Source: a virus
Virus record (IMG/VR): IMGVR_UViG_3300032053_000139
Location: 1 to 46,368 of that record
Reading direction: 5' to 3' (one strand)
Length of the DNA: 46,368 bases
Position 1 is the stretch's first letter. The number at the start of each line of letters is the position of its first letter. Both the position numbers and the translations under genes were made by a program. This document shows, one piece after another, positions 30,258-30,349 of this stretch. A model generated the notes under the pieces. That model was not told the DNA's origin and did no database searches. It saw only the letters and a program-made list of their open reading frames with translations.

Positions 30258-30349
30258 TGTTCGTGCGGCGGGACTCGGACCCGCACCTCCCGGTTCCCAG
30301 CTAGCCAAGCCGGGCGGTCCAGGCGTGTTAACCATTCCACTACGCAGGA
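30258..30349 (-). tRNA. tRNA-Pro(GGG)-like with an 18-nt insertion in the anticodon arm
   Basis: Minus strand: acceptor TCCTGCG/CGCACGA (one C-C mismatch), U8 A9, D-arm GTGG-AATGGTTA-ACAC, anticodon strand CCTGG (30323-30319), 18 extra bases (30318-30301), loop CTGGGAA with anticodon GGG, strand CCGGG, variable AGGT, T-arm GCGGG-TCCGAGT-CCCGC, A73; CCA not encoded. Removing the 18 bases leaves a normal tRNA. The insert plus loop can instead fold as CCCGGC-TTGGCTA-GCTGGG, an extended arm. A 10-bp stem (30351-30360 with 30230-30239) encloses the whole. Functional, intron-containing and decayed are all possible. Confidence 0.55.

Follow-up and report, generated by a model that had tools for sequence, protein, structure and literature searches.

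A tRNA-like gene with an enlarged anticodon arm in the genome of a tailed phage

The window analyzed here is the whole of a single IMG/VR virus record (IMGVR_UViG_3300032053_000139), which is 46,368 bases long and has a G+C content of 66%. Profile matches identify genes for a terminase, a P22-like portal and a major capsid protein (MCP), and the window is a tailed phage genome. Comparison of its right half (22000-46368) with 50,697 phage records at the DNA level returned no near relative. The host is very probably bacterial, because the window encodes an M23 lysin, an ORF resembling sigma-70 region 4 that scores just below the cut-off, and an initiator tRNA of bacterial type. The lysin combines its M23 peptidase with an S-layer homology (SLH) domain, an architecture that may hint at the envelope of the host. 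Elsewhere in the window, two plus-strand ORFs (33871-34173 and 34677-35855) match positions 126-165 and 171-347, respectively, of the DNA methyltransferase family phrog_67; they are separated by about 500 bases and suggest a split or interrupted methyltransferase gene.

Between the structural and the lysis genes lies a gap of about 0.5 kb. It is bounded by an ORF that ends at 30007 and by an 88-aa ORF, starting at 30527, that precedes the M23/SLH-domain lysin gene. No coding signal was found in 30008-30526: all six frames contain at least two stops, and G+C is flat by codon position, in which the gap differs from the surrounding genes. A strong GC-rich hairpin without a T run (30012-30046) directly follows the ORF ending at 30007 and is possibly an end-of-operon structure. 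The gap also contains a tRNA-like gene, which is oriented opposite to its neighbors. The features of this locus, together with the lysin gene and the two other tRNA genes of the phage, are as follows:

30837 to 31517, plus strand: M23 peptidase with an S-layer homology domain (domain match)
30367 to 30395, minus strand: promoter-like site TTGACG-17-TAGGAT, its second hexamer preceded by TG, a consensus match just upstream of the tRNA-like gene
30351 to 30360, minus strand: leader GGCTGGCGGC, complementary to the trailer
30258 to 30349, minus strand, read from 30349 to 30258: tRNA-like gene, consisting of the body, A73 and CA (Rfam RF00005, 41.0 bits, E-value 2.1e-5; ARAGORN with introns allowed)
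30343 to 30349, minus strand: 5' strand of the acceptor stem, TCCTGCG, with U1-A72 and a C3.C70 mismatch (sequence and drawing)
30325 to 30340, minus strand: D arm GTGGAATGGTTAACAC, with G18 G19 and 3 stem pairs (Rfam, ARAGORN and folding)
30289 to 30323, minus strand: 35-nt anticodon arm, with an outer helix CCTGG/CCGGG, an internal loop ACCG/AA, an inner helix CCCGGC(T)/(A)GCTGGG and an apical loop
30301 to 30318, minus strand: insert of 18 nt, ACCGCCCGGCTTGGCTAG, placed after strand 27-31 and before loop 32-38 (ARAGORN intron call)
30294 to 30300, minus strand: CTGGGAA, which without the insert would form the loop with anticodon GGG, mostly paired in the long-arm fold
30268 to 30284, minus strand: T arm GCGGG-TCCGAGT-CCCGC, with the rare C55 (Rfam and folding)
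30258 to 30267, minus strand: 3' strand of the acceptor stem, CGCACGA, followed by A73 and CA (sequence)
30230 to 30239, minus strand: trailer GCCGCCAGCC, pairing with the leader
14178 to 14251, plus strand: tRNA-Met(CAT), initiator-like, CCA encoded, with C1.A72, a GGG/CCC anticodon stem and a C55 T-loop (ARAGORN and Rfam)
13965 to 14053, plus strand: tRNA-Ser(CGA), with C at position 33 (ARAGORN)

The Rfam model RF00005 fits the tRNA-like gene over its full 71 positions with a score of 41.0 bits (E-value 2.1e-5 for the window), well above the gathering score of 29 bits. In the same alignment, 25 nt stand where a 7-nt anticodon loop is expected; 35 nt separate positions 26 and 44, and the gene as written lacks the 17-nt anticodon arm (5-bp stem, 7-nt loop) of an RF00005 member. 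Run over the window without introns, ARAGORN left the gene uncalled and reported only the two other tRNAs. With introns allowed, it called a tRNA-Pro(ggg) with an 18-nt intron at 31-32. Dinucleotide shuffles of the whole window, run at the default threshold with introns of up to 100 nt, gave 5 intron-type calls per 100 shuffles, or about 0.05 per window. The Rfam match and the rarity of intron-type calls in shuffles together show that the observation is real and beyond chance. The gene also exposes a blind spot of ARAGORN, as the default mode missed it and the intron mode presented it as a spliced tRNA whose amino acid is doubtful. A second tRNA-like element, situated a short way downstream on the minus strand (30209-30087) and called as a tRNA-Arg with a 47-nt intron when the ARAGORN threshold was lowered to 80%, was rejected: Rfam is silent on it, and calls at this threshold are noise (203 in the window, 23,811 in 100 shuffles). 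The same region (30087-30209) does have a cloverleaf-like fold with an 8-bp closing stem (z -2.71 for 30080-30215).

Sequence and folding bear out, on the minus strand, the anatomy given in the first-pass annotation, namely a single acceptor mismatch (C3.C70), strands CCTGG and CCGGG, the loop CTGGGAA, and 18 nt that separate CCTGG from this loop. Its description of the D and T arms as canonical goes a little too far, given the G13.A22 opposition beside the 3 pairs of the D stem and the rare C55 of the T loop. It set the insert exactly at the 31/32 border; ARAGORN does place the junction there, but a junction at 30/31 gives the identical product, as G31 can slide. The 3' end reads ACA, so that CCA is not encoded, whereas both other tRNAs of the phage encode it. 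A class II tRNA with a long variable arm was considered in place of an anticodon insert and rejected, as no 17-nt arm starting from C27 pairs when inspected by eye; a true variable-region insert from another phage, described below, served for comparison.

Folded alone, the 35-nt arm has a minimum free energy (MFE) of -18.5 kcal/mol, where its shuffles average -12.8, and 25 of 1000 shuffles are as good. When the acceptor, D and T stems are set as constraints, it folds as one long hairpin. The cloverleaf with the best long arm reaches -35.0 kcal/mol against an unconstrained MFE of -35.5 (a gap of 0.5), while the open 25-nt-loop drawing that corresponds to an intron-type call (-20.2) is 12.5 kcal/mol costlier than the six-pair long-arm form (-32.7). 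The six-pair inner stem leaves a 7-nt apical loop, TTGGCTA, and the most stable form narrows this loop to 5 nt. According to these predictions, the 18 nt are part of a continuous long hairpin and not a free loop. Folding thus yields a stable hairpin on an intact tRNA body, the arrangement to be looked for in a tRNA-like scaffold or decoy RNA. The unconstrained MFE of the whole molecule narrowly departs from the cloverleaf and is no better than that of shuffles (z 0.13).

The flanks of the gene carry two further features, both chosen after inspection: the sigma-70-like site at 30395-30367 is the only one in 701 bases (0.1 expected from shuffles), and the leader and trailer form a 10-nt perfect inverted repeat, with repeats of 10 nt or longer in 5 of 2000 shuffled flank pairs. 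The leader/trailer helix is present in the MFE structure of the 134-nt precursor. The promoter-like site and the helix are hints that favor expression and point to a transcription unit.

An ad hoc base rate for inserts of this kind was drawn from 24 phage loci, mostly of tRNA-rich phages. Among their 376 no-intron ARAGORN calls, none has an anticodon-arm insert, and 11 are overlong class I calls without an intron call; these represent 10 distinct genes, because the loci L102 and L139 hold the same tRNA-Ile. L139 (5 calls) was dropped whole to avoid this duplicate, which leaves 371 tRNAs for counts of identity, similarity and T-loops, and 3 further rows without a three-letter anticodon were skipped for position counts (n = 368). 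The sole intron-type call that did not overlap a no-intron call (L100, 4601-4704) was identified in the Rfam alignment as a tRNA-Leu with a long variable arm. Two phage tRNAs do carry inserts at other sites: a tRNA-Ile(UAU) with about 20 extra nt in its variable region (L102, 768-862, minus strand), and a Glu-like tRNA with a 24-nt D-loop hairpin insert that resembles an extra anticodon arm (L100, 4422-4516, plus strand). Like the gene described here, both hold extra hairpin sequence, in their case about 20-24 nt, in an otherwise sound phage tRNA, but their inserts lie in the variable region and the D loop, respectively, and their anticodon arms are normal. ARAGORN missed the second of them with and without introns, and counts based on it can therefore miss odd genes. 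The absence of anticodon-arm inserts from the 376 calls suggests that decoding phage tRNAs rarely tolerate this change; phage tRNAs seem to accept hairpins elsewhere while the anticodon arm is protected. Such protection is expected if the surveyed tRNAs decode, and the altered arm of the tRNA-like gene would fit a loss of decoding. Among the matches listed for these loci (150 of 169) are also a GOLLD RNA of Vibrio phage 70E35.2, located in that phage's tRNA region (L135 4595-5015), and a permuted tmRNA of Caulobacter phage BL47 (L128 5-314).

The proline label of the gene derives solely from the anticodon obtained after the insert is left out. In the survey, 15 of 17 tRNAs for proline have G37 and 15 of 17 have C1; the tRNA-like gene has A37 and U1-A72, and falls outside the tRNA-Pro(GGG) group on both counts. 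These residues, the C3.C70 mismatch and the unencoded CCA make its identity as a tRNA-Pro weak. A rough alignment of its arms, made without the anticodon region against the 371 surveyed phage tRNAs and the two of the window, ranks the body nearer to Met/Ile-type tRNAs than to Pro: the best score belongs to a tRNA-Ile of another phage (28.5) and the second to the tRNA-Met of the window (25.0), while the Pro group has a mean of 8.5. The T-loop motif TCCGA (C55) occurs in 1 of the 371 surveyed phage tRNAs, yet is present in both the tRNA-like gene and the tRNA-Met. The latter is presumably of the bacterial initiator type, for which C1.A72 and the GGG/CCC stem, read off its sequence, were taken as the marks. 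The shared C55 suggests that the tRNA-like gene may have arisen by copying of this tRNA-Met and later divergence. On the other hand, C55 could be a trait of the host lineage, and the tRNA-Ile of the other phage scores higher. As for the tRNA-Ser(CGA), its C33 is found in 9 of 368 surveyed phage tRNAs, and the intron mode of ARAGORN renames it Ala(cgc) with a 6-nt intron.

Relatives were sought through the proteins of the phage as well as through the gene itself. A 1338-aa protein retrieved one distant locus (L002, 29% identity), with no tRNA in its record, and searches of viral contigs with the endolysin, portal and terminase retrieved no relative. The MCP alignment search gave 80 loci at 25-31% identity. 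A tRNA search of 38 records (34 of these 80 loci and 4 of the 6 phages gathered for the alignment) gave 7 matches in 6 records, of 72-73 nt or of 54 and 60 nt; by length, none has the insert. Exact patterns for the arm and the D arm had no match in the viral and genome collections. A gapped pattern (a similar D arm plus extra length) had 4 viral matches, none of them found to carry an anticodon-arm insert, and none among genome contigs. With BLAST, phages and plasmids yielded only short partial matches of the gene to tRNAs. These viral and genome searches thus found no relative that carries the tRNA-like gene. None of the papers listed by the literature searches describes a phage tRNA with a short insert in its anticodon arm, and the accessible portions of PMC6409571 and PMC10865867 contain nothing on it.

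The tRNA-like gene is real, rare, and mislabeled as a tRNA-Pro with an intron. The preferred reading, with a probability of about one half, is that it is a tRNA-derived gene whose anticodon arm has been remodeled into a non-decoding hairpin that stays unspliced, and that it represents either a relic of recent origin or an RNA that keeps the shape of a tRNA but serves a different purpose. A tRNA gene, possibly that of the initiator-like tRNA-Met, would have been copied, and the anticodon arm of the copy enlarged from 17 to 35 nt. Transcription from the promoter-like site (30395-30367) would produce a cloverleaf with a double-length anticodon arm. The leader and trailer would pair in the precursor, and the intact acceptor/T half would allow host RNase P and 3' enzymes to trim the RNA and the CCA enzyme to complete it. 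The product would not decode, because it has no 7-nt anticodon loop at the normal height. Once freed from decoding, the copy would either decay, as seen in the lost CCA and in C3.C70, or its body would serve as a scaffold for the hairpin. Points against the remodeled-hairpin reading include the following: omitting the insert leaves CTGGGAA with U33 and a purine at 37, a tidiness that is rare by chance, and the whole molecule has the shuffle-like MFE noted above.

A more specific proposal, which is possible but can only be held tentatively, is that the gene encodes a working, non-decoding tRNA-like RNA, a natural scaffold on which the 35-nt hairpin is both displayed and protected. It could serve, for instance, as a decoy for host tRNases or, lying opposite the late genes, as a regulatory RNA. 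The body is intact apart from one mismatch, the hairpin is stabler than most shuffles, and the gene has its own promoter-like site and leader/trailer helix and lies in reversed orientation in the non-coding gap; the lost CCA and the C3.C70 mismatch, however, suggest decay. Engineered tRNA scaffolds expressed in E. coli swap exactly this arm, as described in the available part of PMC3753655: the acceptor, D and T arms are kept and a longer hairpin replaces the anticodon stem-loop. Those scaffolds are man-made, whereas the phage gene is natural, its hairpin is much smaller, and its cargo or function is putative. Phage tRNAs that counter host tRNases have also been proposed (PMC10264068, available part) and share with this gene a changed anticodon region; theirs, however, are point changes in tRNAs taken as working, whereas here the arm has been rebuilt. 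By analogy, a decoy role against host tRNases in the spirit of that proposal may be considered. That the phage would have turned a copy of its own tRNA into a stable, non-decoding 35-nt-hairpin RNA with a decoy or regulatory role, transcribed between late genes from a minus-strand promoter of its own, is unlikely as a complete account.

It is improbable that the gene is a functionless, untranscribed pseudogene or an assembly artifact, as might be argued from the missing CCA, C3.C70, the enlarged arm, the single metagenomic record, and the failure to find a similar sequence in viral or genome collections. The promoter-like site and the leader/trailer complement argue against this, and one stem mismatch only, together with intact D and T arms, would leave little time without selection. 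As an assembly error, a clean 18-nt insertion within the arm would presumably be unusual.

The first-pass annotation had proposed a new 18-nt bacterial tRNA intron at 31/32, the removal of which would give a tRNA-Pro(GGG). In its favor, removal restores an exact 17-nt anticodon arm with U33 and a purine at 37, and CCC is frequent in the phage (109 of 273 Pro codons in eight genes). Group I introns are ribozymes of hundreds of nucleotides; as a group I or other ribozyme the insert was rejected, since its 18 nt fall far below the length of a P3-P8 core and since Rfam, over 29560-30540 at E-values up to 1, found nothing apart from the tRNA. An archaeal-type intron was likewise rejected. It calls for a bulge-helix-bulge motif, in which a central helix of 4 bp at the splice sites is flanked by 3-nt bulges, and this helix has 2 of its 4 pairs at 31/32 and at 30/31. 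A PHROGs scan of 49 ORFs, taken by size and position from 218 mechanical ORFs, found no RNA ligase, tRNA-splicing endonuclease or integrase. Archaeal tRNA introns are also short (12-25 nt being typical in one group) and sometimes at non-canonical positions, according to the accessible text of PMC4090602, but the phage gene lacks their bulge-helix-bulge, seems to belong to a bacterial phage, and has no splicing endonuclease in the 49 ORFs. The group I introns of bacterial tRNA genes (PMC3984707) resemble the insert in interrupting the anticodon region; in its accessible text, this 2014 review places all phage introns known to date in protein genes and none in phage tRNA genes. Taken together, the bulge-helix-bulge failure, the length of 18 nt, the absence of a splicing or ligase gene from the 49 ORFs and the statement of the review make splicing unlikely. 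With a very probably bacterial host, and A37 and U1 speaking against proline in the product, a true intron is very improbable. The proposed intron thus finds no support, and the other option raised beside it, a decoy or pseudogene with an elongated arm, is judged right in its place, the elongated arm being the favored fold.

Alanine tRNAs are marked by G3-U70, and an anticodon arm of 11-12 pairs has no normal fit in the ribosome. Least probable of all is therefore an unspliced tRNA that decodes as Ala through the apical loop TTGGCTA on the elongated stem (anticodon GGC), since, even though the six inner pairs are capped by a 7-nt loop whose position 33 is T, base 37 would be a T (3 of 368 surveyed phage tRNAs), C3.C70 stands where G3-U70 is expected, the arm has 11-12 pairs, and the most stable form has a 5-nt loop.

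If the remodeled-hairpin reading is true, this gene would be nature's version of a construct that RNA engineers make, in which a longer hairpin takes over from the anticodon arm. The usual view of phage tRNA genes is that they assist decoding, and this gene would offer a direct test of roles for them outside translation.
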